Below, piece after piece: positions 9,115 to 37,454 of a stretch of DNA of 64,000 nt; position 1 is the stretch's first letter; each line of letters opens with the position of its first letter. Location of the stretch: positions 62,001 through 126,000 of IMG/VR virus record IMGVR_UViG_3300017917_003859; one strand, written 5' to 3'. This stretch comes from a virus. The position numbers and the translations under genes were made by a program. The notes under the pieces were generated by a model that saw nothing but the letters and a program-made list of their open reading frames with translations, did not search any database and was not told the DNA's origin.

Positions 9115-12021
9115 ATGGCAAATATAGTAGGAGAACCATTTGATGATTATGTATCAAAACAAATAATAGATCGTCAAAAAATTCATGGTCAAGGATTTTC
9201 CCAAAATCGAGATAATTTTACTTTATCATACCTTAATTCTAAAACGAGTTGGATTAAATTATCATCTGGGGTAGCTATAGGTGTTGGAATTGGAGAATAT
9301 GAAGAAGCAAAAGAAAAATTAAAAAAAATAGGATTAGATAGTAATCCTTCATTTTACGGTCCTGACCCATCTGATATCAAAAATGGTAAAGTTACAGGAT
9401 TATCTAATTTTTTTGTTTTATTTAATGGTACTTCTGATAATTCAGGAACTTTATATGAAGGAATAGATATAGTTAATGGTAAAAATCCTAATCAATTTTT
9501 AGGGCAAAGTATTCTTAATAAAGTAGCATATGGTATTGGAGGAACAGAATTCGGATTAACCCCAATGCCTGGTATAACTTCAGCAGATACTAAATTTAGA
9601 AATAGAGGCTCAATTAGAGAAGGTACAGTAAACATTAAAGCATATAATCGAACTCAATTAGAAATTATTGATTTGCTTTATTTACGTTTAGGTTTTCCTA
9701 TGTTACTTGAATGGGGTCATTCTGTGATAGTAGATGAAAATGGTAATATAAATACCAAACCTGATTTTAGTATATCTAAAGAATTTTTAAGTTTAAAATA
9801 TAATACTGATAATGAAGTCTTAGCAGCATTAGAAACTCAAAGAAAAAAATCAGCAGGAAATTATGATGGAATGTATGGTAGAGTTGTAAATTTTGATTGG
9901 TCATTTAATAAAGATGGTTCATATGATATTACTTTAAAATTAATTAGTATAGGAGCAGTTATTGAATCACTTAAAGCAAATGTTTATATTAAAGATAACA
10001 TTTCTAAATCCGACCCTCCAAAAACAGATGAACAAACTCCTACCCCAGAATCTGATGCTGATTGGATAACAGCTTCTAAATATTCTCATACTATAGGAAA
10101 TTTCTTTTTTCAATTTTTTAAAAAAGAACCAAAACTACAAGATAAAGGAATATTTTATTGCAATATAGATGATATAGCACCCATAAGAGGAGGAACTAAT
10201 AAAGACTTTATATGGAGTTCAGAATTAAACAAATACTATATTAGACTAGGAGCATTTTGGAGTTTACTTCAACAAATAGTTCCTATAAAATTAGATGGAA
10301 AAAAAGAAGAAACTCCTATTATATATTTTTTACCTAGTGGAGTAGAAGATAACCCAGCATATACTGAAGAATACCAGATATCTTCTAATCCTAATGTGTG
10401 TTTGATAGGAAATTTTAAAATTAAATTAGATTATATTTTAAATCAACCAACGTATACTATTCTTCCTCAATTACGTTCATTTAAAGATACTACAGATGAT
10501 GGAATATTAAAAGGAAAAATTGAAAATATATATATTAATACTACATTAATTTTACAAAGTTTAGATAATAATAAAGATGAAAATGGAGATGTAAAGTTAT
10601 TTGATTTTATTCAAAGTATTTTAGATTCAATAAATGTTGCTTTAGGGGGAATCAATAAATTAACTTTAATAGTAGATGAAAATAATAATAATGCCAAAAT
10701 AATTGATGAAACCCCTGTTAAAGGATTACCTAAACAAACTAAACCTGAACCTCCAATATTCAATATTTTTGGATATTATAAAAATAAAACATCTGCTGGG
10801 TTTATTAAAGATTTTTCTTTAAAAACAGAAATAACTAACAATTTAGCTTCTATGTTAACTGTAGGAGCTACTGCTAATAAATCTGTAGTTGGTGAAGACG
10901 CTACTGCTTTTTCTAAATGGAATAAAGGCTTAACACCAATAATTGGAGATAAAATATATTATCCTAATGACGCAGCATCAAAACTTACCCCATCACGAGC
11001 TATTGCTCAATTTCAAAAAGAAAACCAACAAATAATTGATCAATATAAAAAATGGATAAGCAATCAAGAAATCGCAGGCCCTGATAATACTAGTATTAAT
11101 GTAGGTGGAGGCTCTACTCCTTTCCAATCCATAAAATCAGAAGATTTAAATAATTATATTGATACTGTTAAAAATTTTATAAATTTTAACAAAGAATATA
11201 ATCTAAAAAGCCCATTTAACAAAAATAAAACAACTGCAACTAGTAGTAAAGGATTTCTTCCAATTAATTTTTCTTTAACAATGGATGGATTATCTGGTAT
11301 AAAAATTTATCAACAAATAATAACTGATACTTCTTATTTACCATCAAACTACCCTACATCTTTAAAATTTATTATTAAAGGAGTATCCCACAAAATTGAT
11401 AGTAGTGGTTGGTTAACAACAATTGAAACAGTTTCTGTTCCTGTTATAGATGCTATAAAAAATATTTCATCCACGTCAACTACTTCTACACCATCATCAA
11501 CAACAGCACCAGCTCCTGCAGATAGAGCAGAATCTAGAAATAATCCAAATGCCGAGAATTTAAGAAAGACTTTATCTCAATTAGGATATAAAGAAAAAGG
11601 TAAAGAAATAGATAGTGGTGGAGTAGATATTAGTAATTCTATAGAAAAAGCAGCATCTGCTATATTAAAAACTATAAAACAAGAATTACCATCAGTACAA
11701 GTAACTGTAACTGGAGGTAATGATAATTATCATCAAAATTTAAATTATAATTCTAGACATAAAGCTGGAAACGCGGTTGATTTAACTGTAACTCCTAATG
11801 ATCCTGTTACTTTAGATAAAATAGTAAATATACTACAACGATATGCTGCAGGTAATGCTCCAAATTTTAGGTTTATAGATGAATATAGAAATTTAACTAA
11901 GGCTGGAACAGGTAATCATTTTCATTTATCTTGGGGAGCAGGTACTGAATCACAAAATGAATTAAATAAATCTTTAAAACTTGCCCAACAAGGAAAAATT
12001 ACACCTATTAAAATAGCATAA
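9115..12021 (+). CDS. Baseplate hub/spike protein with C-terminal M15-like peptidase
   Basis: 968 residues. About residues 130-310 and 560-790 look like hub-type beta domains (GSIREGTVNIKAYNRTQLEIIDLLYLRLGFPMLLEWGHS; INFSLTMDGLSGIKIYQQI). A Ser/Thr/Pro linker near 790-805 leads to about 160 residues with SRHKAGNAVDL and later GNHFHLSWG. That matches the metal-binding pattern of D-Ala-D-Ala carboxypeptidase/endopeptidase family M15 (SxHxxGxAxD ... HxH). I infer a gp27/gp5-like hub that carries its own peptidoglycan-cutting domain for entry. Confidence 0.8.
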   Translation: MANIVGEPFDDYVSKQIIDRQKIHGQGFSQNRDNFTLSYLNSKTSWIKLSSGVAIGVGIGEYEEAKEKLKKIGLDSNPSFYGPDPSDIKNGKVTGLSNFFVLFNGTSDNSGTLYEGIDIVNGKNPNQFLGQSILNKVAYGIGGTEFGLTPMPGITSADTKFRNRGSIREGTVNIKAYNRTQLEIIDLLYLRLGFPMLLEWGHSVIVDENGNINTKPDFSISKEFLSLKYNTDNEVLAALETQRKKSAGNYDGMYGRVVNFDWSFNKDGSYDITLKLISIGAVIESLKANVYIKDNISKSDPPKTDEQTPTPESDADWITASKYSHTIGNFFFQFFKKEPKLQDKGIFYCNIDDIAPIRGGTNKDFIWSSELNKYYIRLGAFWSLLQQIVPIKLDGKKEETPIIYFLPSGVEDNPAYTEEYQISSNPNVCLIGNFKIKLDYILNQPTYTILPQLRSFKDTTDDGILKGKIENIYINTTLILQSLDNNKDENGDVKLFDFIQSILDSINVALGGINKLTLIVDENNNNAKIIDETPVKGLPKQTKPEPPIFNIFGYYKNKTSAGFIKDFSLKTEITNNLASMLTVGATANKSVVGEDATAFSKWNKGLTPIIGDKIYYPNDAASKLTPSRAIAQFQKENQQIIDQYKKWISNQEIAGPDNTSINVGGGSTPFQSIKSEDLNNYIDTVKNFINFNKEYNLKSPFNKNKTTATSSKGFLPINFSLTMDGLSGIKIYQQIITDTSYLPSNYPTSLKFIIKGVSHKIDSSGWLTTIETVSVPVIDAIKNISSTSTTSTPSSTTAPAPADRAESRNNPNAENLRKTLSQLGYKEKGKEIDSGGVDISNSIEKAASAILKTIKQELPSVQVTVTGGNDNYHQNLNYNSRHKAGNAVDLTVTPNDPVTLDKIVNILQRYAAGNAPNFRFIDEYRNLTKAGTGNHFHLSWGAGTESQNELNKSLKLAQQGKITPIKIA

Positions 12022-12679: not shown

Positions 12680-12724
12680 GAAAGCACCTCTAAATCGCTA
12701 TCTGAGGTGCTTTCAATTTTTTAA
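12680..12724 (+). terminator. Strong terminator closing the tail operon
   Basis: A perfect 11-bp stem (GAAAGCACCTC at 12680-12690 with GAGGTGCTTTC at 12704-12714), 13-base loop, then aattttttaaattt. A smaller hairpin (TATAGC ttac GCTATA) sits just upstream. It separates the late tail genes from the replication genes. Confidence 0.93.
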
Positions 12725-12772: not shown

Positions 12773-14062
12773 ATGGCATTCTATATTGTTGAAACAAATG
12801 AACAACTAAATGAAATATTTGATAAAGCTTATGATAAAGTCTTTATTGAGCCTATTTTTTATAATGATGATATTCATCCTTCATTAAATTATATTTCATT
12901 ACTATATTTAAAGCCGTTAAACAATGATAAAGGGTATGTTTTATGTCTTGATCATACTGAGGCCTTATCTTTGAATAAAGGTAGTATAGATAATTTACTT
13001 GCTACTTTTAAAGAAATATATATTAGAGATAGAAAATCATTTATATATTTTTTTCCATTAAAAAATTTAATTGATATATCATTTTATACTCCTGAATTTA
13101 TTGAGCCTACTACTTCTGCTCATGAAGTTTTTTATCAAAAATATGGAGATAAAGACAATATAAATACTATAATACCATTAGTTAAACATTATGAAAAATG
13201 TGAATTGATTTTTAATAAAGTAAAAGATTATTGTATTAAACTTGATAATTCAAAATTTTATACTAAATTAACTAATGTGTTTTTTGCTATTGAAAAAAAC
13301 GGAATTAAAATAGATAAACATGTTTTTGATAAATTCTTTGAACCAAATAATGAATTATTTTCTATTCAAAACAATAGAATATATACCCAATATAACTTAT
13401 ATACTACAACAGGAAGACCTTCTAATAGTTTTAATAATATCAACTTTGCTGCATTAACTAAAGATAATGGATGTAGAAAAGCATTTGTTCCTGAAAATAA
13501 TTATTTTATTGAAATAGACATTACAGCCTATCACCCAACATTAGCAGCCCAATTGGTTGGTTTTGATTTTAAAAATGAAACCCCATATCAATATTTAGCG
13601 CGTGAGGCTGAAGTAGATTTAACTGAGGCTAAAACATTAATGTTTAAACAATTATATGGTGGAGTATATAAAGAATATCAATATATAGAATTTTTACAAT
13701 CTATACAAGAATATGTAAAAAACTTATGGAATACATATTCTTCTACGGGTTCAATAAAAGCACCAATCTCTGGGCATGTGTTTGAAAATTTGAAAGATAT
13801 TAATCCTCAAAAATTATTTAATTATCTTTTACAAAATTTGGAAACTTCAACTAATGTTTTTATATTGTGGGATATTATAAAAATATTAAAAGGTAAATCT
13901 ACTAAAATTGTATTATATACTTACGATTCCATATTAATAGATTATAATGAAAATGATAATATATTAAATCAAATCCAACAAGTATTTGAAAAATATAAAC
14001 TAAAAATAAAAACAACCCAAGGTACAACGTACAATAACATGATTCTTTACAATAATTTATGA
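12773..14062 (+). CDS. Divergent family A (Pol I-like) DNA polymerase-type protein
   Basis: 429 residues. The N-terminal about 190 residues resemble a degenerate exonuclease-like region without a clear DxE. From about residue 205 there are PolA-like landmarks: TTGRPSNSFNNINFAAL, motif A-like FIEIDITAYHPTLAAQLVG, motif B-like EAKTLMFKQLYGG, and motif C-like LYTYDSILIDY, where YDS would replace HDE. It is far shorter than Pol I. It opens the replication module under its own early promoter, although a separate PolB is encoded at 30.4-33.7 kb. Gap-filling, repair or priming roles are possible. Confidence 0.65.
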   Translation: MAFYIVETNEQLNEIFDKAYDKVFIEPIFYNDDIHPSLNYISLLYLKPLNNDKGYVLCLDHTEALSLNKGSIDNLLATFKEIYIRDRKSFIYFFPLKNLIDISFYTPEFIEPTTSAHEVFYQKYGDKDNINTIIPLVKHYEKCELIFNKVKDYCIKLDNSKFYTKLTNVFFAIEKNGIKIDKHVFDKFFEPNNELFSIQNNRIYTQYNLYTTTGRPSNSFNNINFAALTKDNGCRKAFVPENNYFIEIDITAYHPTLAAQLVGFDFKNETPYQYLAREAEVDLTEAKTLMFKQLYGGVYKEYQYIEFLQSIQEYVKNLWNTYSSTGSIKAPISGHVFENLKDINPQKLFNYLLQNLETSTNVFILWDIIKILKGKSTKIVLYTYDSILIDYNENDNILNQIQQVFEKYKLKIKTTQGTTYNNMILYNNL

Positions 14063-14526
14063 AACAAATCGAATTTGAACCCTCTATAGATATTTATAAT
14101 CAGTATGATTTCATTACTAACAAAAATTTTACTGATTTTATGAATAACAGGTTATTTGCTACCTTCACCCAGCAAAATGAAATAGATAATTTAGTTAAAC
14201 AACTATCAAGTACTTACAACATAATGTATAATAAAATGTTTGTATTATTTGTTAAAAGTACAAACGAATATGTTGTGACTTACAATGTAGAGCAGGGAAA
14301 CGTTGATAGTATTCCTAGCAATACTATATTAGTACATAGAAAAAAAGAAACCAACACTTTATATACTATTAATGCTCTTAATGATTTAATTAAAAAATTA
14401 AATAATGGTATGTTAGATTCAAATTATAAAGTAGATTGGGTACAATATAAAAATTGTATATTATTAACTCAACAAGGTGAAGTAAAACAACTGAATACAA
14501 AAATATTTAAAATCGTAGACTTATAA
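14059..14526 (+). CDS. Unknown protein coupled to the PolA-like gene
   Basis: 155 residues, no recognised domain. It overlaps the PolA-like gene by ATGA, so the two are translationally coupled and probably work together. The sequence is mixed alpha/beta with many Asn and Thr (FVKSTNEYVVTYNVEQGN). The 132 bases after it hold only the gp32 promoter. Confidence 0.6.
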   Translation: MKQIEFEPSIDIYNQYDFITNKNFTDFMNNRLFATFTQQNEIDNLVKQLSSTYNIMYNKMFVLFVKSTNEYVVTYNVEQGNVDSIPSNTILVHRKKETNTLYTINALNDLIKKLNNGMLDSNYKVDWVQYKNCILLTQQGEVKQLNTKIFKIVDL

Positions 14527-14658: not shown

Positions 14659-15522
14659 ATGGATTTAAATTCAATCAAATCAAAACTGAATGCTCTACAG
14701 TCGCAAGGGCAAAAGAAAGAAAAGGTAGATTATTCAAAATACCTTTGGAAACCAAAACAAGAAGGTAAATATCAAATTCGAATTGTTCCTTCTAAATTAG
14801 ACAAAAATAATCCTTTTAAAGAAGTATTTCTTCATTATGGTATGTCTAAATTTCCAATGTATGCTTTAACTAATTGGGGAGAAAAAGATCCAATTGTAGA
14901 ATTTGCAAAACAACTTCGTTCAACTAATGATAAAGAAAATTGGAAATTAGCTAAAAAATTAGAACCAAAAATGCGTATTTTCGCCCCAGTAATTGTTAGG
15001 GGTGAAGAAGATAAAGGTGTACGTTTGTGGGAATTCGGTAAAGAAATTTACATGCAATTGTTAGGAATTGCTGATGATGAAGATTACGGTGATTATACTG
15101 ATATTAATGATGGTCGTGATTTTACTCTAGAAGCAGTAATTGGTGATATTGGTGGTCGCCAAGGTTTAAAAACCAGCATTCGTGCCAAAACAAAAATATC
15201 TCCATTAAGCACTAATAAATCAGATATTGAAAAATGGCTTGAAGAACAACCAAACATTTTAGAAATTCAGTCTACATACAAAATGAGTTTTGATAAAATG
15301 AAAGAAACTCTTCAAAACTGGCTAAACCCAGAAGCTGAAGTTGAAGAGGGAGATGAAGAAGAAAACGAAGTAGAAGAAACTTCAAATAATGATTTACCTT
15401 GGGAAGATAAAAAAGAAGAAAAAAAATCTACTCCTAATAAATCAAATTATACATTAAAAACTTCAACTAAAGTATCAAAAGCAGATAAATTTGATAAATT
15501 ATTTGAAGAAGAAGAAGACTAA
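14659..15522 (+). CDS. 32: Single-stranded DNA-binding protein (gp32-like)
   Basis: 287 residues, close to T4 gp32 (301). It coats single-stranded DNA at the fork and recruits replication and recombination proteins. The OB-fold core shows KYQIRIVPSKLDKNNPFKEVFLHYGM then the ALTNWGEKDPIVEFAKQLR block. The zinc-binding Cys/His set of T4 gp32 is not seen. From about residue 225 the tail is very acidic (EAEVEEGDEEENEVEE) and it ends FDKLFEEEED, the usual protein-docking tip. UvsX follows 14 bases later. Confidence 0.9.
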   Translation: MDLNSIKSKLNALQSQGQKKEKVDYSKYLWKPKQEGKYQIRIVPSKLDKNNPFKEVFLHYGMSKFPMYALTNWGEKDPIVEFAKQLRSTNDKENWKLAKKLEPKMRIFAPVIVRGEEDKGVRLWEFGKEIYMQLLGIADDEDYGDYTDINDGRDFTLEAVIGDIGGRQGLKTSIRAKTKISPLSTNKSDIEKWLEEQPNILEIQSTYKMSFDKMKETLQNWLNPEAEVEEGDEEENEVEETSNNDLPWEDKKEEKKSTPNKSNYTLKTSTKVSKADKFDKLFEEEED

Positions 15523-15536
15523 AAAATTAATAAGTT

Positions 15537-16619
15537 ATGGGAAAAAAATCAACGTCGTTAACTGAGGCAGTTAGCAATCAGTTAAAGGGAAATTTTGACT
15601 TAGATAAATTTAAAGAAAAAAAATCTTTAAACAATAATGTCAAATTTAAAGAACAAAAATGGATCCCATTCTCTAAAGCACTCCAGGATACTTTAAGTAT
15701 TCCTGGAGCGCCTATAGGACATATTACTCTCCTAAGAGGACATTCGGATACAGGTAAAACAACTGCTCTTCTAGAATTAGCAGTTAATGCTCAAAAAATG
15801 GGAATATTACCTGTATTCATTATCACTGAGATGAAATGGAGTTGGGCTCATGCTCGTCAAATGGGATTTCAATTAGAAGAAATCAAAAATGATAATGGAG
15901 AAGTAGTTAATTATAAAGGATTCTTTCTTTACGCAGATAGAGGTACATTGAATACTATTGAAGATGTAGCTGAATTTATTGCCGATTTATTAGATGAGCA
16001 ACGTAAAGGAAATTTACCTTATGATTTGTGTTTCTTTTGGGATAGTATTGGCTCTATACCATGTAAAATGAGTATAGAAGCAAATAAAAATAATCCTATG
16101 TGGAATGCAGGAGCAATGTCTCAACAATTTGGAAATTTTATAAACCAATATTTCCCTTTATCACGTAAAGAAAATTCAAAATACACCAATTCATTAGTAG
16201 CAATTAATAAAATTTGGGTAGCACCAGCTGAAACAATTATGTCTCAACCTAAAATCAAAATGAAAAATGGTGAAACAATGTTTTTAGATTCTACTATTGT
16301 TATAACATTTGGTAATGTTACTAATAGTGGTACAAGTAAAATTAAAGCTACTAAAAATGGTAAAGAAGTAGAATTTGCTAAACGCACTAAAGTTTCATGT
16401 GATAAAAATCATATTATGGGTATGCAAACCAAAGGAACTATTACTATGACAGTTCATGGCTTCATCCCAGATGAAAAATCAGCAATCGATGCTTATAAAA
16501 AAGAACACTCTAACGAATGGATCCAAATTTTAGGCTCAGCTGATTTTGATTTAATGGAAGATAACTCAGATTGGGAAGAAAATGTTAAAGATATACCTCT
16601 ATTAGAAGATGAACAATAA
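15537..16619 (+). CDS. uvsX: Recombinase UvsX (RecA-like)
   Basis: 360 residues. It forms ATP-dependent filaments on single-stranded DNA for strand exchange and recombination-dependent replication. Walker A is GHSDTGKTT at about 68-76, and Walker B-like DLCFFWDSIGSIP lies at about 163-175. The C-terminus is acidic (MEDNSDWEENVKDIPLLEDEQ), as in T4 UvsX. It overlaps the next gene by 11 bases and follows gp32, its functional partner. Confidence 0.92.
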   Translation: MGKKSTSLTEAVSNQLKGNFDLDKFKEKKSLNNNVKFKEQKWIPFSKALQDTLSIPGAPIGHITLLRGHSDTGKTTALLELAVNAQKMGILPVFIITEMKWSWAHARQMGFQLEEIKNDNGEVVNYKGFFLYADRGTLNTIEDVAEFIADLLDEQRKGNLPYDLCFFWDSIGSIPCKMSIEANKNNPMWNAGAMSQQFGNFINQYFPLSRKENSKYTNSLVAINKIWVAPAETIMSQPKIKMKNGETMFLDSTIVITFGNVTNSGTSKIKATKNGKEVEFAKRTKVSCDKNHIMGMQTKGTITMTVHGFIPDEKSAIDAYKKEHSNEWIQILGSADFDLMEDNSDWEENVKDIPLLEDEQ

Positions 16620-17658
16620 AGATCTCCTTAAACTCCTTGATAGTATCCAAGAAGATGATAAAAAAACTACCCAAACAGATGAAAATAGAATTTTAATTAT
16701 CGATGGATTAAACCTATTTTTCAGAAATTTTGCAGTATTAAATTATATCAATTCATATGGAACACACATTGGAGGACTAAGCGGCTTTTTGAGATCTCTA
16801 GGAGCATTAACTAAACAACTCCACCCAACTTCTGTTTATGTAGTATTTGACGGAGTAGGTTCTACCATAGCTAGGAAGAACCTTCTCCCCGAATACAAAT
16901 CTGGTAGGAATTCTACTAAAATGACTAAAGCTTTATTTAATGATATAGATGAAGAAAATGAATCTAAAGCTAATCAAATAGGGCGATTAATAAATTATTT
17001 ACAATGTCTTCCTATTAAAATCATATCTATTGATAAAGTAGAAGCAGATGATGTTATAGCGTTTTTAAGTAAAGAACTTACTAAAAATAATAAAACAAAA
17101 GCATATGTTGTTTCTACAGATAAAGATCTTCTTCAATTAGTAGATGATAACATTACTATTTATGGAGCTATTGAAAAAGAATTTTATACTCCAAAAGTTG
17201 TAAAAGAAAAATATGGATTACATTCATATAATTTTTTAATTTACAAAACATTAATGGGAGATGGATCTGATAAAATAAAAGGAATACAAGGCTTAGGAGC
17301 TAAAAAACTCCCTAAACTATTCCCAGAACTATTTGAAGATAAAAAAATCACTTTAGATGATTTATTTAAAATTTGTGAAGGAAAATATGATAAACATATT
17401 ATTTATTCTCGAATTGTATTTAATTCTGATGATGTAAAAAGAAATTATAAAGTTATGAATTTAGAAAACCCAATGTTGGATGATCAAGAAAAACTTTATA
17501 TATTAAATTGTATAAATTCTTCTCCATATAAATTAAATATAGTTGATTTTATTAAAATGTACCATGAAGATGGATTGAGTAATGTATTAAAAAATATAGA
17601 TTATTGGTTAAAAGATAACTGGACTATATTAGATAGATACAATAAAACAAAATACTAA
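16609..17658 (+). CDS. 5'-3' exonuclease / RNase H of the FEN family (T4 rnh-like)
   Basis: 349 residues. It removes RNA primers and 5' flaps from lagging-strand fragments. Acidic metal ligands are visible in ILIIDGLNLFFRN (Asp near 32), VYVVFDG, VEADDVIAFL, STDKDLLQL and GDGSDKIKGIQGLG, the last being the helix-three-turn-helix region. Length and motif order fit T4 RNase H. The 11-base overlap with UvsX suggests one transcript with gp32 and the helicase. Confidence 0.9.
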   Translation: MNNKDLLKLLDSIQEDDKKTTQTDENRILIIDGLNLFFRNFAVLNYINSYGTHIGGLSGFLRSLGALTKQLHPTSVYVVFDGVGSTIARKNLLPEYKSGRNSTKMTKALFNDIDEENESKANQIGRLINYLQCLPIKIISIDKVEADDVIAFLSKELTKNNKTKAYVVSTDKDLLQLVDDNITIYGAIEKEFYTPKVVKEKYGLHSYNFLIYKTLMGDGSDKIKGIQGLGAKKLPKLFPELFEDKKITLDDLFKICEGKYDKHIIYSRIVFNSDDVKRNYKVMNLENPMLDDQEKLYILNCINSSPYKLNIVDFIKMYHEDGLSNVLKNIDYWLKDNWTILDRYNKTKY

Positions 17659-17670
17659 ATAAGTTATAAA

Positions 17671-19062
17671 ATGACACTGAATTCAATAGAAAATTATGGA
17701 ATAGGATTCCAAACAAAAGTTATATCTGGTTTGTTAACAGATAAAACATTTTTACAAAATATTAATGATGTATTAACTGAAGAATACTTTACAAATAGTG
17801 CTCACCAATGGATTATAACTGAAATAATTAAGTATTATCAAAAATTCCATTGTCCCCCAACAATGGAGGTACTTAAAACTGAAATGAAAAAAATAGGTAA
17901 TGAAATTTTACAATTATCTATTAAAGAACAACTAAGAGAAGCATATAAACTCTCAGATGAAAATGATTTGCCATATATTAAACAAGAATTTGCTAATTTT
18001 TGTAAAAATCAACAATTAAAAAAAGCACTTCTTAATTCAGTTGATTTATTACAAGCTGGAGATTATGATTCTATTCGTTCATTAGTAAATAATGCTTTAA
18101 AAGCAGGGCAAGAAAAAAACATAGGCCATGAATATTCTAAAGATATAGAATCAAGGTATAGAGATGAAGATAGATCGCCAATCCCATTTCCGTGGAATAC
18201 ATTTAATAAAATTACTCAAGGAGGATATGGTAAAGGTGATTTAGTATTAATTTTTGGTAATCCAAAAGGAGGAAAATCCTGGTCAGTAATAGCTATGGCC
18301 GCTGAAGCAGTTAAATTAGGTTATAATATAATATATTATGCTCTAGAATTAGGAGAAACATATGTAGGGAAACGCTTTGATGCTTATTTCACAGGTATTC
18401 CAGTTGATCAATTAGATAAACATAGGGATAAAGTAGATGAAATAACAAAAAATCTTCCTGGAAAATTAATTATTAAAGGCTATCCACCAAAAAGAGCATC
18501 TTTAGCTACAATTGAAAATCATATTAATCAGGTAAGAGAATTAGGAGAAGAAGAAAACAAAAATTTTACAGTTGATGCTATATATATAGATTATTTAGAT
18601 TTATTAAAAAACAGAGCATCAAGAAAAGAAAGAAAAGATGATATAGATGATGTATATACAGATGCTAAAGGTTTAGCTAAAGAATTAAATATTCCTATAA
18701 TTTCTCCTTCCCAAGCAAATCGTTCAGGTGCAGAAAAAGAAATTCTTGAGAGTAGTCATATTGCTGGAAGTTTTGATAAAATAATGATCGGGGATATAAT
18801 TATATCCTTAGCTAGAGGAAGAAAAGATAGATTAGAAGGAACAGGTAGATGGCATATAATGGGTAATAGATATGGACCTGATGGTGTTACTTATAGTTCA
18901 ACAATAGATACATCTACAGGACATATAGAAATTAATGAAGAAGAATTAGATTTAGATAAAGTAGATATAAATATATCTTCAAAACCTGACTCTGTAGGTG
19001 TATTTAATGAAGAAAAAGAATTTTTAAGAAAGAAGTTTTTTGAGCTTGAAAATAATCTTTAA
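17671..19062 (+). CDS. 41: Replicative DnaB-type helicase (gp41-like)
   Basis: 463 residues, close to T4 gp41 (475). It unwinds DNA 5' to 3' as a hexamer and pairs with primase. The N-terminal helical domain spans about 1-150. The RecA-type core holds Walker A GNPKGGKSW (196-204), the EL motif region YYALELGE and Walker B-like VDAIYIDYLDLL, then the sensor SPSQANRSG. No primase gene was found in this window. It is followed by the nrdB promoter. Confidence 0.93.
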   Translation: MTLNSIENYGIGFQTKVISGLLTDKTFLQNINDVLTEEYFTNSAHQWIITEIIKYYQKFHCPPTMEVLKTEMKKIGNEILQLSIKEQLREAYKLSDENDLPYIKQEFANFCKNQQLKKALLNSVDLLQAGDYDSIRSLVNNALKAGQEKNIGHEYSKDIESRYRDEDRSPIPFPWNTFNKITQGGYGKGDLVLIFGNPKGGKSWSVIAMAAEAVKLGYNIIYYALELGETYVGKRFDAYFTGIPVDQLDKHRDKVDEITKNLPGKLIIKGYPPKRASLATIENHINQVRELGEEENKNFTVDAIYIDYLDLLKNRASRKERKDDIDDVYTDAKGLAKELNIPIISPSQANRSGAEKEILESSHIAGSFDKIMIGDIIISLARGRKDRLEGTGRWHIMGNRYGPDGVTYSSTIDTSTGHIEINEEELDLDKVDINISSKPDSVGVFNEEKEFLRKKFFELENNL

Positions 19063-23414: not shown

Positions 23415-24206
23415 ATGATAAAGATTTCACATGAAGTGCCCCTTTGTTTATTAGAAAAAAGTAGAGAATTTAATGATTATGATTATTGTCTTCCTCATTT
23501 AATGGATGAAAATGAAGAATATAAACAATTTTTCCTTAAATCTAAAGAAATAGGTCGTCATATAATGATGGATAATAGTTTACATGAACTTGGAGTCCCA
23601 TATTCTGAAAAAAGATTGTTTTATTGGTTAAATGAATTACAACCACCAGAATTTTTTGTTCCTGATTATTGGGAAAATAAAACAGAATCTATTGTTTCTG
23701 CTAAAAAATGGATTGGATTTCAACAACAATATCCAAATACTACATTTATAGCTGTAGCACAGGCTAAATCATATGGTGAAGCATTAGAGTGTTATCAAAT
23801 TTATAAAGATTTAGGTTATAAAAAGATAGCATTTAGTTATGGAGCTTCTTTCTATAATAAATTATGTCCCCATCCTAATAAATCATTAGGAAAAGCATTA
23901 GGTAGAATTCATTTAATTTCTCATTTATATAAAGAAAATATTATTACTTCAACTGATAGAATCCATTTATTGGGTTGTGCTGTACCTCAAGAATTTAAAT
24001 GGTACAAAAACATGCCTTTTATTGAAAGTATAGATACTTCAAACCCAGTAATGGCTACTTTAGATGAAATGGAATATGGTAGTTATGGTTTATATGAAAA
24101 ACCTAAATCAAATATGAATGATTCATTTTATATAAAATTAAATCAAATAAATATTCCATTATTACATCATAATATTGAAAAATTTAGAAAAATAAATTCA
24201 TTATAA
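23415..24206 (+). CDS. Tgt/DpdA-like transglycosylase for 7-deazaguanine insertion
   Basis: 263 residues. Landmarks are HEVPLCLLEKSREFNDYDYCLPHL, the putative active-site strand GRHIMMDNSLHELG, then FFVPDYW and IAFSYGASFYNKL. These fit the phage tRNA-guanine transglycosylase-like family linked to DNA modification (DpdA types), which swaps guanine in DNA for a deazaguanine base. The four preQ0 synthesis genes follow within 4 kb, which supports DNA as substrate. The catalytic Asp residues cannot be proven by eye. Confidence 0.65.
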   Translation: MIKISHEVPLCLLEKSREFNDYDYCLPHLMDENEEYKQFFLKSKEIGRHIMMDNSLHELGVPYSEKRLFYWLNELQPPEFFVPDYWENKTESIVSAKKWIGFQQQYPNTTFIAVAQAKSYGEALECYQIYKDLGYKKIAFSYGASFYNKLCPHPNKSLGKALGRIHLISHLYKENIITSTDRIHLLGCAVPQEFKWYKNMPFIESIDTSNPVMATLDEMEYGSYGLYEKPKSNMNDSFYIKLNQINIPLLHHNIEKFRKINSL

Positions 24207-24207
24207 A

Positions 24208-24239
24208 TTTGGAATTTTAATTTAAAAATATTATATTTA
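24208..24239 (+). promoter_or_regulatory. Early-type promoter TTTGG-N19-TATATTTA before queC
   Basis: TTTGG at 24208-24212 and TATATTTA at 24232-24239, 14 bases before the queC start. A perfect match to the consensus. Confidence 0.8.
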
Positions 24240-24253
24240 TTATAAATACAGTT

Positions 24254-25138
24254 ATGAAAAAATACGCAGTTTTATCGTTAAGTGGGGGAATGGATAGCTC
24301 CACATTATTACTCCATTTATTAGCAAATAATTATGAAGTAACTGCTTTATCATTTGATTATGGTCAAAAACATAAAGTTGAATTAGAAAAAGCAAAAGAA
24401 TTAGTAGAATACATTAATGGGAATTTTAATATAGATGAAGAATCAAAAACAGTTGATTATCCATATTATGTTAAACATCAAATCATTAAATTAGATGGTC
24501 TCTCTCAATTACTCAATTCATCATTAGTTGAAGGTGGTTCTGAAGTACCTGAAGGACACTATGCTGAAGAAAATATGAAAGATACAGTTGTTCCTAATCG
24601 TAATAAAATATTCAGTTCTATTATTCAAGCAGTTGCCTTATCAATAGCTGAAAAAAATAACGCTGAATGTTCTATAGCAATGGGAATTCATGCTGGTGAC
24701 CATGCTATTTATCCGGATTGTCGTCAAGAATTTAGAGATGCTGATTTTGAAGCATTTAAACAAGGAAATTGGGGTGCTGAAAGAGTAAATGTATATACAC
24801 CTTATCTTGATACTGATAAATTTGGTATTTTAAAGGATGGAGAATCTTGTTGTGAGTGTTTAAATTTAAATTTTGACGAAGTATATTCACGTACTAATAC
24901 AAGTTATAAACCAATACATATCCCTTCTTACAATAAACAAGGATTTACAGAACAAGGAAAATGGTACTCAGATTACAAATCAGCTAGTTCAGTAGAACGT
25001 ATTGAAGCATTTATGAAATTAGGAAGAAAAGATCCTGTTAAATATGCTGAAATTATTCCAAGTGGAGAAGCAATCCCTCGCACTTGGGAAGAAGTAGTAA
25101 TTCATGTTAAAAATATTTTAGAAAATCATAATAAATAA
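24254..25138 (+). CDS. queC: 7-cyano-7-deazaguanine (preQ0) synthase QueC
   Basis: 294 residues. It converts 7-carboxy-7-deazaguanine to preQ0 with ATP and ammonia. The PP-loop is LSLSGGMDSSTLLLHLL (about 7-23). Other marks are ALSFDYGQKHKVELEKA, VVPNRNKIF and MGIHAGDHAIYPDCR. The Cys cluster DGESCCECLN probably binds zinc. It has a clean early promoter and acts last in the phage's own preQ0 pathway. Confidence 0.95.
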   Translation: MKKYAVLSLSGGMDSSTLLLHLLANNYEVTALSFDYGQKHKVELEKAKELVEYINGNFNIDEESKTVDYPYYVKHQIIKLDGLSQLLNSSLVEGGSEVPEGHYAEENMKDTVVPNRNKIFSSIIQAVALSIAEKNNAECSIAMGIHAGDHAIYPDCRQEFRDADFEAFKQGNWGAERVNVYTPYLDTDKFGILKDGESCCECLNLNFDEVYSRTNTSYKPIHIPSYNKQGFTEQGKWYSDYKSASSVERIEAFMKLGRKDPVKYAEIIPSGEAIPRTWEEVVIHVKNILENHNK

Positions 25139-25151
25139 AAAGGAGGTAAAT

Positions 25152-25493
25152 ATGTTTAATTTTGAAGATTATTTTAATTCATGGAATGATTTGTTTAAAT
25201 TTAATTATGAATACAAATCAACATCTTATAATTGGGATGAATTAAAAAAACAAGGTAAAGTAGAAGAAACTACTGAAGAAAAAAATGGTTTTAAAACTAT
25301 TACTCGAACCTTTATTTCAAAAGATGGAAATCAAAGAATTACTCAATCTGAAACTTTCCCTATTATTGATGAAACTAAACAAAAATTAATTAGTTTAGAT
25401 AAACAAATTTATGAAGCTGTAAAAAAAGAAGACTATGAAACAGCAGCTAAATTAAAAAAAGAAAAAGAAACTTTAATAAAAAATAAAAAATGA
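25152..25493 (+). CDS. Small protein with C-terminal UVR-like motif
   Basis: 113 residues. The last 30 (LDKQIYEAVKKEDYETAAKLKKEKETL) match the UVR/UvrB-UvrC interaction helix pair. The first 80 residues are aromatic and charged, with no known fold. The start is preceded by aaggaggt, an almost perfect Shine-Dalgarno box, rare in this genome. It overlaps the thioredoxin gene by ATGA. I infer a protein-protein adaptor. Confidence 0.65.
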   Translation: MFNFEDYFNSWNDLFKFNYEYKSTSYNWDELKKQGKVEETTEEKNGFKTITRTFISKDGNQRITQSETFPIIDETKQKLISLDKQIYEAVKKEDYETAAKLKKEKETLIKNKK

Positions 25494-25741
25494 AACAAGC
25501 AATTTTATTCACAGCAAATTGGTGTTCTGCATGTCAAACAATGAAACCAATTATTGAACAAGTAACTAAAGAAACTAAAACTCAATTAGCAAAAATTGAT
25601 ACTGATTATGATGTTAGTTTAACTCAACAATATAATATTAAAAGTATTCCTACTTTAGTAATTTTAGAAAACGGAAATGAAATTAATCGAGTAGTAGGCA
25701 CTCAATCTGCTGAAAGCATTAGAAATCTAATTAAAGGATAA
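25490..25741 (+). CDS. Thioredoxin-like protein
   Basis: 83 residues, a minimal thioredoxin fold with the redox centre WCSAC near residues 11-15 and cis-Pro in KSIPTLVIL. It probably reduces the phage ribonucleotide reductase or another enzyme. It is shorter than bacterial thioredoxin (about 105). It is flanked by ATGA overlap upstream and one base from queD. Confidence 0.9.
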   Translation: MKQAILFTANWCSACQTMKPIIEQVTKETKTQLAKIDTDYDVSLTQQYNIKSIPTLVILENGNEINRVVGTQSAESIRNLIKG

Positions 25742-25742
25742 T

Positions 25743-26219
25743 ATGGCAAGATACATCTCAACAAAATTATTCGAAAACTACTCAGTAGCAATTCGTCAAT
25801 GGAAAGCACAACATTCACATTGTCAATTATTACATGGATATGCTTTAAAATTTAAAGTATGGTTTGCATCTAATGAACCTGACATTGATAAACAACTCGA
25901 TGATATGAATTGGATTGTTGATTATGGTGGATTTAAAACTCCTCCTCATGGTAATGGATTAAAAGATTGGATGAATCATATGTGGGATCATACAACATTA
26001 ATTCAAAAAGATGATCCATATGCTGATATTTTTGAGCAATTAGGGCAAATGGGTTTAGCTAAAGTGCATTTTTTAGAAAAAATGGGAGCTGAGTCATGTG
26101 CACGTTTAGTTTATGAACATTTTAATGAAGTTTTATCTAAAACAGATGCAGGTCGTTGTAAATGTATCAAGGTAGAATGTTTTGAAAATGATAATAATTC
26201 TTCAATTTATGAAGAATAA
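25743..26219 (+). CDS. queD: 6-carboxy-5,6,7,8-tetrahydropterin synthase QueD
   Basis: 158 residues of the PTPS/QueD family. It makes carboxytetrahydropterin from dihydroneopterin triphosphate. Zinc-binding His residues lie in QHSHCQLLHGYALKFKVW, and DWMNHMWDHTTLI carries the conserved Asp-His region. The conserved CKCIKVECFEN strand is near the end. It is the second enzyme of the preQ0 route; its neighbours supply the others. Confidence 0.93.
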   Translation: MARYISTKLFENYSVAIRQWKAQHSHCQLLHGYALKFKVWFASNEPDIDKQLDDMNWIVDYGGFKTPPHGNGLKDWMNHMWDHTTLIQKDDPYADIFEQLGQMGLAKVHFLEKMGAESCARLVYEHFNEVLSKTDAGRCKCIKVECFENDNNSSIYEE

Positions 26220-26251
26220 TTTGGATTATAAAATAAATTAATTTATATTTA
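26220..26251 (+). promoter_or_regulatory. Early-type promoter TTTGG-N19-TATATTTA
   Basis: TTTGG at 26220-26224 and TATATTTA at 26244-26251, 12 bases before the next start. A perfect consensus. Confidence 0.8.
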
Positions 26252-26263
26252 AAAACAAAAGTT

Positions 26264-26509
26264 ATGGAAAATCAAGAAACAATGTTGTCCTTATATGATT
26301 ATTTAGGACATGCCGCTGGCTCTCAATTAGGAAAAGATGTAGCAGCTGCTGCTAAAAATGAAAAGTGTGGATTTGAAATTAGAGTAGTCTCTAATCCTAA
26401 ATATACTGGTGAAGTTATGTTATATCCTAAATCTTTTTTAGATAAGTATTTTAAAAAAACAAAAACAACTGACCAGAATATTTCTGATAATGACATACTA
26501 CCATTTTAA
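26264..26509 (+). CDS. Small protein in the deazaguanine cluster, unknown
   Basis: 81 residues. An N-terminal helical part (LYDYLGHAAGSQLGKDVAAAAK) is followed by a strand pair (FEIRVVSNPKYTGEVMLYPKSFLDKYF) and an acidic end. It sits between queD and queE, two bases from queE, so a helper role in base modification is possible but unproven. Confidence 0.65.
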   Translation: MENQETMLSLYDYLGHAAGSQLGKDVAAAAKNEKCGFEIRVVSNPKYTGEVMLYPKSFLDKYFKKTKTTDQNISDNDILPF

Positions 26510-26511
26510 TT

Positions 26512-27351
26512 ATGAGTAAAATACAAAAAGATAAATTATTAATTAGTTCCGACTTCTATTCAGTACAAGGAGAAGGAAAAACTACAGGTGTACCTTCATA
26601 TTTTGTACGTTTAGGTATGTGCAATTTAACTTGTGGAATGTCTCGTTTATTTGCCAATAAGTTAATGAAAGAAAAATCATTAGAAGATGGTGAAATCTTT
26701 GAAGGTGACTTACATAAGGAAGGTAAAGCAACTTGGACTTGTGATTCTACTTCTCAGTGGTTATGGAGAGGTGAAGATAAAGATTTCCAATACTTAATTG
26801 ATAGGTGGAAAGAACAAGGCATCTATGAAGATATTAAGAACGGTACTATCCATATTATTTGGACAGGTGGTGAACCTACAATTAAAGGACATCAGGAAGC
26901 AATTTGTAATTTTTTAGATTATTGGAATCAAATAGATCCACATTATTCATATAATGAAATAGAGACAAATGGTACTGTTTATATTGAAGATGGAGAAAAT
27001 AAAGGAGTATTTAATTACATAAATCAAATTAACTGCTCACCAAAGTTAGCTAACTCAGGTATGACTGAGAAACAGCGTATTAATCCCGATGCTATTAAAC
27101 GCATTATGGAACACGCTAACTATCAATTCAAATTCGTTATTAGTACAGAAGATGATGTTAAGGAAATATTTCGTGATTTTGTAGAACCATTTAATATACC
27201 GCTTAAAAATGTAGTTTGTATGCCTGGGTTAGATGATCAAACTGATTTTCATGAGCGTACTCAATTTTGTTTAGAAATGGCTAAAAAATATAAATTTATT
27301 GGTCTTACTCGTTTACATATTTCGGCTTGGGATAAAACATTAAATGTATAA
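26512..27351 (+). CDS. queE: 7-carboxy-7-deazaguanine synthase QueE (radical SAM), with insertion in the cluster loop
   Basis: 279 residues. The start FYSVQGEGKTTGVPSYFVRLGMCNLTC is typical QueE. The third cluster Cys, expected two residues later, appears only after about 35 residues in WTCDSTSQW, giving CX3CX35C instead of CX3CX2C. IIWTGGEPT, NEIETNGT and NCSPKLANSG are the standard later motifs. The inserted loop is charged and helical. The enzyme forms the deazaguanine ring. The insertion resembles those in some phage and bacterial QueE proteins, so activity is likely kept. Confidence 0.9.
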   Translation: MSKIQKDKLLISSDFYSVQGEGKTTGVPSYFVRLGMCNLTCGMSRLFANKLMKEKSLEDGEIFEGDLHKEGKATWTCDSTSQWLWRGEDKDFQYLIDRWKEQGIYEDIKNGTIHIIWTGGEPTIKGHQEAICNFLDYWNQIDPHYSYNEIETNGTVYIEDGENKGVFNYINQINCSPKLANSGMTEKQRINPDAIKRIMEHANYQFKFVISTEDDVKEIFRDFVEPFNIPLKNVVCMPGLDDQTDFHERTQFCLEMAKKYKFIGLTRLHISAWDKTLNV

Positions 27352-27352
27352 A

Positions 27353-27505
27353 ATGGAAAAGGAAGACGCTAAAAAACACTTAATGAAATTAAGAATAGAA
27401 GCTTTATATAGAGAGTGGGCTATTTTAAAAGAAGTTGTATCTTCAACCCCTAATGATCAAGATTTAGGTAAAAAAATTAGAGAATATTTTAATAATAAAA
27501 AATAA
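27353..27505 (+). CDS. Short helical protein between queE and folE
   Basis: 50 residues (MEKEDAKKHLMKLRIEALYR...), highly charged and helical. It starts 1 base after the queE stop and ends 1 base before folE. The tight fit and aaaATG context support translation. Function unknown. Confidence 0.55.
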   Translation: MEKEDAKKHLMKLRIEALYREWAILKEVVSSTPNDQDLGKKIREYFNNKK

Positions 27506-27506
27506 T

Positions 27507-28148
27507 ATGAAATATATCAATAAAGCAAATGAAAATACTCCTCGTACTGCTAAGGAGATTGAAAAGATGATTAAAGAAGCATCTAAACATTATGGTAAAT
27601 TTTTAAAATCAATGGGATTTGATTATGAACAAGATCCTCAAACCCTAGATACTCCTCGTCGTGTAGCTAAAGCCTGGTTAAAAGATCTAGTTATAGGCTC
27701 AGTTACCGAAGAACCATCAATGACTGTATTTCCTAATGAAGAAAATTATAATGGAGTAGTAATTCAAACAGGAATTCCTGTAGTATCACTTTGTGCGCAC
27801 CATAATCTACCTTTTACAGGTTATGCTTCGGTAGCATATGTGCCTAAAGATAAAGTAGTAGGTTTAAGTAAATTAAATCGTGTTGTTGATTGGTTTTCTC
27901 GTCGCCCACAAATGCAAGAATCTCTTACTCAACAAATTCATAGTTTTTTATCTGAAAAATTAGGATGTGAGTCTGTAGCTGTTAGTATTGCTTCTAAACA
28001 TATGTGTTGTTCAAATCGTGGTATTAAACATCCCACATCAACTATGACTACTAATAAATTTAGTGGTGTATTTATGGAACCAAATAATATGATTCGTGAA
28101 GAATTTTTACATGCAATTGCAAAAAATGGAAAAGATATCAATCAATAA
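27507..28148 (+). CDS. folE: GTP cyclohydrolase I
   Basis: 213 residues. It turns GTP into dihydroneopterin triphosphate, the first step to preQ0. Zinc ligands and active-site motifs are visible in VSLCAHHNLPFTG and ASKHMCCSNRGIKHP, with YVPKDKVVGLSKLNRVVDWFSRRPQ between. It completes the set FolE-QueD-QueE-QueC. Its 3' end overlaps the following membrane gene by 23 bases. Confidence 0.96.
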   Translation: MKYINKANENTPRTAKEIEKMIKEASKHYGKFLKSMGFDYEQDPQTLDTPRRVAKAWLKDLVIGSVTEEPSMTVFPNEENYNGVVIQTGIPVVSLCAHHNLPFTGYASVAYVPKDKVVGLSKLNRVVDWFSRRPQMQESLTQQIHSFLSEKLGCESVAVSIASKHMCCSNRGIKHPTSTMTTNKFSGVFMEPNNMIREEFLHAIAKNGKDINQ

Positions 28149-30382: not shown

Positions 30383-32131
30383 TTGTATCAGTCAATTTAC
30401 TACGATCACCAATCATATACTTATTATCTCCGTGATGATGATATGGGTTGGTCTGAATTTAAATATCAACCAACATATTGGAAACGAGTAGATGAATGGC
30501 AAGAAAATGCTCAACCTGTACTGACCGGAGGATGGGCAGTACCAACTAAAAAATATAATAAAGATGATTCTAATTTATTAGAAAAAGATATTGATAAATG
30601 TCTTGTTGTATTACGAGAATTATATTACAAATTAGATGATGTTGTGCCTAAATGGCATAACATTGTTTATTTAGATATTGAAATCGAAATGGGAGGTGCT
30701 TTAACACCTGAATACATCAAAGCTGCACCTATGCCTCTTACATCCATTGCTTTAATTGACATTACCACTAAACAAAAAATATGTTTAATTGTTGATAAAA
30801 CAGGTGAAATTAAAGAAACAAATCAAGATAGCAAACATATTATACCTTGTGGTTCAGAAAAAGAATTAATTAAACGCTTTCTAGATAAATGGGAAGAATT
30901 AGACCCAACAATCATCTGTGGATATAACTCAGAATATTTTGATGTACCTTACTTGTATTTTAGAATTAAACAAGTACTAGGTGAGGATGAAGTATTGCGT
31001 TTATCTCCCATTAAAAAAATTAATTATAGAGAATTTGCTGGTCAAATGCAACTTACTATAGGAGGTGTTAACCATTTAGATTATATGCTTTTACATAAAA
31101 AGTATATTATGAAAGAAGAACCCTCATATAAATTAGGAGATATAGGAACTAAATATGTTAATTTAGGTAAAATAGAGTATGAAGGTAATTTAAATACTTT
31201 ATTTAAAAACGATATAAATAAATTTATAGATTATAACTTACGAGATGTTGAAATTATAGAAGCATTAGAAGGTAAATTAAAATTTATCGACTTAACAATC
31301 ATGATTTCTCATATTTGTAATATACCTTACGAAAGTATTTACTACAATACAGTAATGAATGAAGGTGCTATTTTAAAGTATTTAAGACGTGAAGGCATCA
31401 TTTCACCAAACAAACCAACTACTCATAATCCATCACTTAAAAACATTAAGGAAAGTTATGCTGGTGGTTATTTATTGGAACCTATTCCTGGATTATATTT
31501 TGATGTTATTGATTTAGACTTTACTTCACTATATCCTTCAATTATTAAATCACTTAATTTAGGTATTGAAACATTAGTAGGTAGAATTAAAGTACCTTAC
31601 AATGCTACTTACGAGCAAAATCATAGTTTAGAAAAACTTAAAGAACGCAATCCTGAAGAAGAAATAACTATTGAAAAATTAGACAAAACAAATTATACAC
31701 TTAAATCAGCTAAAATTAAATTAAAAACATTAATTGATATAATTGAAAAAAACAATTACACAATATCTGCTTCAGGTGCTATGTTTGATACTAACGAAAA
31801 AAGTATTGTATCTAAAATATTAGCAGGGTGGTTTGACAAACGAGAGCATTATTGTGGTTTAAAGAAAAAAGCAGGTAAAGCAGAGGATTGGGCCAATTAT
31901 AAATTATATGATTTGTTTCAACATGCTTTTAAAATCTTACAAAACGCAATGTATGGCACATTTGCTATTAATGGATGGAGATACACTGATGGTCATTTGA
32001 TTTGTAGTGCTGCTATTACAAATAGTGGACAAAGATTAACTATGTCTACTATAGATTTTGTAAATGATAAAATAAACAATGAATATTTACAATTAAGTAA
32101 AGATAAGTTAATTACTAAATTTGGTTTATGA
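30383..32131 (+). CDS. 43: Family B DNA polymerase, N-terminal part (gp43-like; split gene)
   Basis: 582 residues. The start is TTG at 30383, chosen because the protein then opens YQSIYYDHQSYTYYLRDDD, the normal gp43-like N-terminus. Exonuclease motifs: IVYLDIEIEMG, IICGYNSEYFDVPY and YNLRDVEII. Polymerase motif A is DLDFTSLYPSII and motif B is KILQNAMYGTFA. The frame ends at KLITKFGL, before catalytic motif C. Motif C lies in the gene at 32820. Together the parts total 875 residues, near T4 gp43 (898), so little or nothing is missing. Confidence 0.93.
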   Translation: MYQSIYYDHQSYTYYLRDDDMGWSEFKYQPTYWKRVDEWQENAQPVLTGGWAVPTKKYNKDDSNLLEKDIDKCLVVLRELYYKLDDVVPKWHNIVYLDIEIEMGGALTPEYIKAAPMPLTSIALIDITTKQKICLIVDKTGEIKETNQDSKHIIPCGSEKELIKRFLDKWEELDPTIICGYNSEYFDVPYLYFRIKQVLGEDEVLRLSPIKKINYREFAGQMQLTIGGVNHLDYMLLHKKYIMKEEPSYKLGDIGTKYVNLGKIEYEGNLNTLFKNDINKFIDYNLRDVEIIEALEGKLKFIDLTIMISHICNIPYESIYYNTVMNEGAILKYLRREGIISPNKPTTHNPSLKNIKESYAGGYLLEPIPGLYFDVIDLDFTSLYPSIIKSLNLGIETLVGRIKVPYNATYEQNHSLEKLKERNPEEEITIEKLDKTNYTLKSAKIKLKTLIDIIEKNNYTISASGAMFDTNEKSIVSKILAGWFDKREHYCGLKKKAGKAEDWANYKLYDLFQHAFKILQNAMYGTFAINGWRYTDGHLICSAAITNSGQRLTMSTIDFVNDKINNEYLQLSKDKLITKFGL

Positions 32132-32141
32132 TATTTATAAC
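32130..32141 (+). promoter_or_regulatory. Late-type motif GATATTTATAAC between polB part 1 and the leader protein gene
   Basis: It overlaps the polB stop region and lies 12 bases before the leader protein start. It has the same core as the boxes before sheath, tube and tape measure genes, which would give the inserted gene late timing unlike its early neighbours. Confidence 0.4.
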
Positions 32142-32153
32142 AAATACTGGATT

Positions 32154-32795
32154 ATGAAAAAATCACAACTTAGGCAAATAATTAAAGAAGAAATATTTAA
32201 AATATTAAATGAGAATATTTCTAAAATCATAGATAATTTTGAACAAGGACTAATGGTTTATATTATGGATGCATATCAACGATTAGACAATGATGAAGCT
32301 GAGTTATTAGAACTAAATGAATTATATGATTCTATAAATTGGTTTCTTAAAAATACCCCAGAAAAAGAGTTTATAGAATATGAAAAAGAAAATATGGAAT
32401 TTTTTATAAATAATAGATCTCAAATTGAACATTATTTAATAGATAATATAAATGAACCTATTAAAGTTCAATGGCCCGGATTACCAGATGTATTTTATTA
32501 TACTCCATTAGTAAAAAAGAATCAAATCTGGATTAAATTAGGGACTACCCCTAATTCAAAATTAGACCCCAAATATGATTACTACAACCCCAGTGAAGAT
32601 TTAGAGTTCCCTATACGAATTAAAAATAAAGATGATTTTGAAAAATATTCTAAAGAATTAGAGGTAAAAGGGTATTATTGGTATGGAGGAAAACCCCCAT
32701 CATCGTTTAACCCTGCAGAACAAACAAACGGAATAGAATATCCTTTTAAATTATTAAGAATAGATAAAAATTCAAAACAGTTAGGATATAATTAA
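32154..32795 (+). CDS. Leader-bearing protein inserted between polymerase halves, candidate virion cargo
   Basis: 213 residues from ATG 32154. The first 20 residues, MKKSQLRQIIKEEIFKILNE, are almost the same as those of the gene at 37725 and related to three more. The rest is acidic and unlike them: a helical part (about 20-110), then a beta-rich part with VQWPGLPDVFYYTPLV and GYYWYGGKPPSSFNP. No known domain. ILNE fits an L-x-E prohead protease site. It splits polB before motif C and has its own late-type motif. Confidence 0.75.
   Translation: MKKSQLRQIIKEEIFKILNENISKIIDNFEQGLMVYIMDAYQRLDNDEAELLELNELYDSINWFLKNTPEKEFIEYEKENMEFFINNRSQIEHYLIDNINEPIKVQWPGLPDVFYYTPLVKKNQIWIKLGTTPNSKLDPKYDYYNPSEDLEFPIRIKNKDDFEKYSKELEVKGYYWYGGKPPSSFNPAEQTNGIEYPFKLLRIDKNSKQLGYN

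Positions 32796-35035: not shown

Positions 35036-37453
<2,418 letters not shown>

Positions 37454-37454
<1 letters not shown>

Follow-up and report, generated by a model that had tools for sequence, protein, structure and literature searches.

The window analysed here is a stretch of 64,000 nucleotides (G000:C1:62001-126000) from a virus record of 155,027 bases. Its plus strand carries a replication gene cluster, which a terminator-like hairpin (z -6.1, with a 57-base stretch folded) sets apart from the upstream gene, and a regular replicase encoded in two pieces further along. The first two genes of the cluster share their stop and start codons in an ATGA at 14059-14062; the four genes after them were identified by database match and gene order. 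The features are as follows:

12680-12714, plus strand: terminator-like hairpin with an 11-bp stem and a T run
12773-14062, plus strand: predicted family A DNA polymerase of 429 aa, almost certainly of the divPolA1 type (from the ORF, the family profile and the model)
14059-14526, plus strand: 155-aa partner protein, overlapping the polymerase gene by ATGA (from the ORF and its conservation)
14659-15522, plus strand: single-strand DNA binding protein (SSB) of the gp32 type
15537-16619, plus strand: UvsX/RecA-type recombinase
16609-17658, plus strand: FEN-type 5'-3' exonuclease, equivalent to the domain at the N terminus of Pol I
17671-19062, plus strand: gp41/DnaB-type replicative helicase
30383-32131, plus strand: N-terminal piece of the regular PolB replicase, with the exonuclease and the first part of the polymerase domain
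32820-33701, plus strand: C-terminal piece of the regular PolB replicase, beginning just before motif C

A 968-aa ORF lies at 9115-12021, and its C-terminal part looks, by eye, D,D-carboxypeptidase-like.

As a single sequence, the 429-aa protein gave nothing significant in Pfam, PHROGs or the PDB. Its best scores were E 0.062 for Pfam mCpol (below the cut-off of that family), E 0.78 for PHROG 9991 and E 0.29 for a capsid protein in the PDB, and Pfam DNA_pol_A did not match it even at E 1. An alignment (A4) was made of the window protein and 102 relatives, out of 106 relatives chosen for diversity; L036, L053, L093 and L132 are absent from it, the last two being cut at a contig edge. The profile of these 103 members matched Klenow fragments at E = 8.4e-9, and Pfam DNA_pol_A was matched by 46 of the 103 (E 0.01 or better; best 2.4e-14), the window protein not being one of them. 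The AlphaFold2 model of the 429-aa protein has a mean pLDDT of 96.8, and Foldseek with this model matched 246 PDB chains with an E of at most 0.001, of which the 50 listed carry titles naming Klenow, Bst, apicoplast, theta, nu and similar polymerases. VIA-align placed Bst and M. smegmatis Pol I fragments in its ten best rows, with Z scores of 26.0-26.4 over 374-398 residues, and the matches cover model residues 1-425. By profile and model, the 429-aa ORF is a family A DNA polymerase. The initial annotation had read PolA-like motifs A and C in it and had proposed a structure prediction against Pol I as a check; that reading is correct, motifs 1 and B are present as well, and the check bears it out. 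A chance match of the motifs is ruled out by the Klenow match of the profile and the Z of about 26.

A divergent group of such polymerases, divPolA1, was described by Yutin et al. 2024 (PMC11348598) from 14 phages including Flavobacterium phage immuto. Its members have an intact palm, a truncated thumb, an inactivated exonuclease and conserved replication genes downstream, and the phages also encode a regular polymerase, which may be of family A, B or C, close to a GroEL or GroES gene (PMC11348598). Among the papers listed by a literature search, the names divPolA1 and divPolA2 occurred only in this study and its preprint. The immuto divPolA1 is a relative of the 429-aa protein (tblastn against MW353175-7: 37% identity over 99% of the query, E 4e-84), and the immuto gene matched is the one with replication genes after it. 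Further carriers of relatives are Microcystis phage Mel-JY01 and one 484-kb uncultured phage; in IMG/VR, two scans, each covering its first 599 pattern matches, gave at least 580 and at least 552 relatives. We assign the 429-aa protein to divPolA1 with high confidence.

The protein is divided, with approximate limits, into a vestigial exonuclease-like domain (about residues 1-125), a strongly shortened thumb, a palm and small fingers. Residue equivalences were obtained by alignment to E. coli Pol I, the numbering of which was checked, and locate the motifs as follows:

13403-13426, plus strand: motif 1, TTTGRPSN, with R215 equivalent to R668 of E. coli Pol I in 103/103 members
13517-13534, plus strand: motif A, D249-I-T-A-Y-H254, with D249 equivalent to D705 in 103/103 members
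13631-13660, plus strand: motif B, K287xxxF291xxxY295-G296, equivalent to K758, F762, Y766 and G767
13922-13930, plus strand: motif C, Y384-D385-S386, equivalent to H881, D882 and E883

All 103 members of A4 keep D249, K287, Y295, R215, R235, Q354 and D385, so that the catalytic Asp pair of the palm (D249 and D385) is retained throughout, as in published divPolA1, and the F762 position (F291 here) is Phe in 101. The position of the steric-gate residue E710, H254 here, is His in all 103; the Glu is thus absent from motif A of these members. It is typical of family A rather than strictly defining, and was checked only in immuto gp199 and in E. coli Pol I, with a statement in PMC9324360 besides. 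The R754 position holds Tyr in 79 members, Ile in 12, Val in 5, Leu in 4, Arg in 2 and Gln in 1, and the E883 position holds Ser in 80 and Ala in 23. An active polymerase, that of phage Tt72, also has Ser where Pol I has E883, and severe impairment was reported for its two Asp mutants only (PMC9324360), so Ser or Ala at this position need not mean a dead enzyme. Nothing fitting a family A polymerase with His as its steric gate turned up in a literature search at the level of titles and abstract starts. From the conserved Gly of NG(V/I)xI to the Arg of TGR, the spacing has a median of 36 residues (20-40, 103 members) compared with 124 in E. coli Pol I; most of the thumb is therefore missing, as in published divPolA1, and long unaided synthesis is unlikely because the thumb is short. 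Judged by these residues, the divPolA1 here is probably a catalytically active polymerase.

In the exonuclease-like domain, the positions of Pol I D355 and E357 are acidic in none of the 103 members, and the Pol I segment holding D501 has no counterpart in the A4 alignment. D101 (Asp in 88/103) aligns with the exonuclease residue D424, by sequence alone, and an acidic residue stands one place before the D355 position in 77/103. Yutin et al. 2024 reported all three exonuclease Asp as replaced, using a structure-guided alignment (PMC11348598). Our sequence alignment confirms two of these three losses, and the D424 equivalent may be retained as D101; proofreading by divPolA1 is unlikely. Short forms of the polymerase of about 332-346 aa were seen in L188, L199, L208, L198 and G020. 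The G020 protein matches only from profile position 100, so the short forms may be without the N-terminal exonuclease-like domain.

The 155-aa protein was followed in 248 loci other than that of the window, which were fetched with polymerase or partner as the query and several of which share one contig. The polymerase was found in 246, the partner in 237 and both in 235; in all 235 the partner lies downstream on the same strand, adjacent in 194 and within 3 kb in 41. After duplicate removal 213 loci remained, and the partner was present in 140 of the 141 unique loci with at least 3.5 kb after the polymerase. The remaining one, L227, has divPolA1 and no detectable partner across its whole contig of 15.3 kb. 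In the annotated phage collection the polymerase and the partner matched the same six records, and the partner is present in each of the 13 records of 115 kb or more that carry divPolA1. The coupling proposed in the initial annotation thus holds, by the ATGA overlap and by this count, and the 155-aa protein is a near-obligate downstream partner of divPolA1.

Residues H93-R94, Y102, N105, N108 and W127 of the partner are invariant. Its model is alpha/beta (pLDDT 88.1); the best Foldseek match in the PDB had E 0.095, and VIA-align gave Z up to 6.8, which the tool itself counts as background. A match to the SV40 T-antigen origin-binding domain falls in that same background range (Z 6.6, rmsd 3.8, 82 residues), so a reading of the partner as an origin-binding-domain or HUH-like protein has no confident fold match behind it. 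The fold searches yielded one uncultured-phage homologue in BFVD and no solved structure above background. In Rhodothermus phage RM378, p131 (208 aa, L291:18648-19274, minus strand) resembles the most conserved motif of the partner, with E 0.0014 unfiltered in a small set; a whole-record search of RM378 for the partner did not reach 0.001, and the best divPolA1 match in this phage had E 0.016 on an unconvincing stretch.

The cluster as a whole is strongly conserved. The order divPolA1-partner-SSB-UvsX-FEN-gp41 is identical in all 54 loci with enough sequence, and where sequence suffices downstream of divPolA1, SSB was found in 116/118, UvsX in 62/62, FEN in 62/62 and gp41 in 54/54, in agreement with the downstream replication genes of published divPolA1. 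A survey starting from gp41 (80 loci, within the available flank) found FEN in 72/72, UvsX in 63/63, SSB in 49/49, the partner in 30/39 and the polymerase in 25/30. Two of the five polymerase misses were located further along their contigs; the other three are on contigs of 9.9, 17.6 and 23.6 kb, with the partner at the contig edge in the latter two. Two of the nine partner misses were checked, and one was located further along and one was not. Via gp41, four records of 115 kb or more were reached, and each of them carries divPolA1. The initial annotation had regarded a second polymerase beside PolB as an oddity; instead, these four records and the constant gene order give it a fixed place in a replication cluster.

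Rank correlations of pairwise protein distances over 83 loci were highest, among 15 pairs, for divPolA1 and FEN (0.88), and divPolA1 correlated with the partner at 0.83, the helicase at 0.81, UvsX at 0.63 and SSB at 0.62; these values are a weak pointer because genes in a common cluster are expected to covary. The Mel-JY01 homologue of the window FEN (346 aa, L003:17030-18070) is annotated 'DNA polymerase I' (TIGR00593).

The rest of the genome was compared in a census of the 13 records of 115 kb or more in which divPolA1 occurs (G000, which is the record of the window, G001-G005, G019-G022, immuto, Mel-JY01 and LR756508). For nine of these the entry point was the polymerase or its partner, so their carrying divPolA1 is no test; for the four reached via gp41 it is one. 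The PolB noted in the initial annotation is indeed present in the window, split into the two pieces listed above, and GroEL at 35823-37454 lies near it, which reproduces the regular polymerase near a chaperonin gene in divPolA1 phages. Between the PolB pieces lies a 224-aa ORF (32121-32795) without a Pfam match. The PolB of G002 (L271) and that of G006 (L273) are split at the same place, where the 224-aa ORF is not matched; in nine other loci PolB is one ORF of 840-888 aa, and in LR756508 it matches in two frames about 5 kb apart.

PolB occurs in 8/13 census records. The regular replicase of immuto is a 777-aa PolA, with no PolB match, and G020 carries PolC (G020:C1:113366-114467), which may be split as well, since its matches fall in two distinct open frames (447 and 750 aa). 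G003, G021 and G022, which may be fragments, gave no PolB or PolC match; the search for PolA covered the census records other than G019-G022, and that for PolC the records other than G001, G002, G004, G005, Mel-JY01 and LR756508. The cluster persists whether the regular replicase is PolB, PolA or PolC. That the replicase varies while divPolA1, partner, FEN and helicase stay points towards a task that none of the replicases performs.

Primase genes were searched with a profile (A6) of T4 gp61, immuto DnaG and the primase of the window genome itself, which was preferred because the Zn-ribbon PF01807 matched 5/17 records and missed the T4 control. A DnaG-type primase of 311 aa is encoded at G000:C1:13061-13996, upstream of the window. 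The earlier statement that no primase was seen is therefore true for the window and false for the genome, its cause being the limits of the window. The same type of primase is present in 12/13 census records, G005 being the exception; among eight shorter records (69-95 kb) it was found in two.

Window positions 23415-28148 hold homologues of immuto DpdA, QueC, QueD and FolE, and 7-deazaguanine DNA modification in this phage is probable from these matches; homologues of immuto QueE and QueF were not found at E 0.001. A DpdA homologue occurs in 6/13 census records, in one of which the contig edge truncates it. The other seven, some of which may be fragments, show no DpdA-type gene.

The likeliest role of divPolA1, to which we give a probability of roughly 40%, is short-patch DNA synthesis in concert with FEN, whose gene lies in the same cluster. 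The nuclease would strip RNA primers or flaps, divPolA1 would fill the resulting gap, and ligase would then seal it. The two proteins would form a Pol I in separate pieces, with the polymerase and the 5'-3' nuclease as separate genes of one cluster. The partner may supply the DNA grip or the recruitment lost with the shortened thumb, and both would take part in phage replication but act separately from the main replicase. Polymerase activity, physical contact with the partner and gap filling are inferred. The constant presence of FEN (62/62) and its top distance correlation with divPolA1 count for this role, and the helicase, which correlates almost as well, counts against it. T4 processes its Okazaki fragments with FEN (RNase H), gp43 and ligase, without a PolA, so a gap-filling PolA is no logical need. 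The shortened thumb might also make the enzyme poor at nick translation, and the invariant His at the steric gate and the lost R754 are not accounted for by plain gap filling. A bolder reading, improbable on the present data, is an obligate two-subunit polymerase of a kind not described before: divPolA1 would be the thumb-poor, His-gated catalytic subunit and the partner a small DNA-binding subunit that replaces the thumb in trans, and the pair would initiate or prime DNA synthesis, or else process Okazaki fragments, beside any replicase of family A, B or C.

Other roles would draw on different parts of the same evidence. It is unlikely that divPolA1 and its partner extend or start primers before an interchangeable replicase takes over, in a Pol-alpha-like hand-off or in origin initiation. 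The short thumb would suit short, non-processive synthesis, the helicase gene is always nearby, and His in place of the steric-gate Glu could relax sugar choice, since E710 blocks ribonucleotides in E. coli Pol I (PMC9324360). The partner model also weakly resembles polyomavirus origin-binding domains, but its Z score lies in the background range. Moreover, F291 at the F762 position is DNA-polymerase-like, and with a DnaG-type primase in nearly all census records, this phage included, a new primase is unneeded; the initial suggestion of priming for want of a primase thus loses its premise. Extension of UvsX-made D-loops, in recombination-dependent replication or double-strand break repair, is quite unlikely: UvsX and SSB belong to the same cluster in all 54 loci, but their distance correlations with divPolA1 are the lowest among the cluster genes, and in T4 the replicase itself extends D-loops.

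A translesion or modified-base polymerase, which the initial annotation had also suggested, is a very doubtful reading. Proofreading is unlikely and this phage has the 7-deazaguanine genes, both of which would suit bypass, but a pure bypass enzyme would not be expected as a fixed gene of a core cluster. Damage bypass keeps a small probability; bypass of modified bases as the general role is ruled out by the seven census records, some of which may be fragments, that show no DpdA homologue. That divPolA1 is an inactive leftover of Pol I with a structural or regulatory function is highly improbable. The equivalents of E883, E710 and R754 are lost, but both metal-binding Asp and the equivalents of K758, Y766 and R668 are invariant in 103 diverse members, and the active Tt72 polymerase likewise has Ser at the E883 position (PMC9324360). 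The near-obligate partner and the invariant His offer concrete hypotheses for a family that was published without a tested function, and the question is testable because a cultured isolate, immuto in Flavobacterium LMO8, carries divPolA1 as gp001 and the partner as gp002.

Compared with known systems, the protein shares motifs 1, A, B and C with E. coli Pol I Klenow, the chains of which were matched by Foldseek. It has 429 residues and Klenow about 605; here the thumb is largely missing and the fingers are missing in part. E710 is replaced by His, R754 mostly by Tyr or Ile, and E883 by Ser or Ala; in the exonuclease domain, D355 and E357 are replaced and the D501 segment is absent. Immuto gp199, the regular PolA replicase of that phage, is also of family A and lies beside GroES/GroEL, as the window PolB lies near GroEL. 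Unlike divPolA1, gp199 is full length and retains, by eye, the acidic exonuclease motif and the steric-gate Glu; the divPolA1 profile scored E 0.093 against it, and hhalign of A4 with gp199 was not significant. The divPolA2 of barbaviruses is likewise a second PolA variant beside a regular PolB, with a variable context and another N-terminal globular domain (PMC11348598), and it is set apart here by this published description alone.

With published divPolA1, the window protein has in common the truncated thumb, the intact palm, the degenerate exonuclease domain, the downstream replication genes and the separate polymerase near GroEL. No defining feature differs, the loss of exonuclease Asp being confirmed for two of three. 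Since the published features are present, the exonuclease one in part, we regard the protein as a member of divPolA1 and not as a new family. The accessible part of the text of Yutin et al. 2024 makes no mention of the 155-aa partner, the steric-gate residue or the primases of these phages. New in comparison with the published description are the near-obligate partner, the constant order of the six cluster genes, the invariant His together with the lost R754, the presence of a DnaG-type primase alongside divPolA1 and the wide spread of the family.
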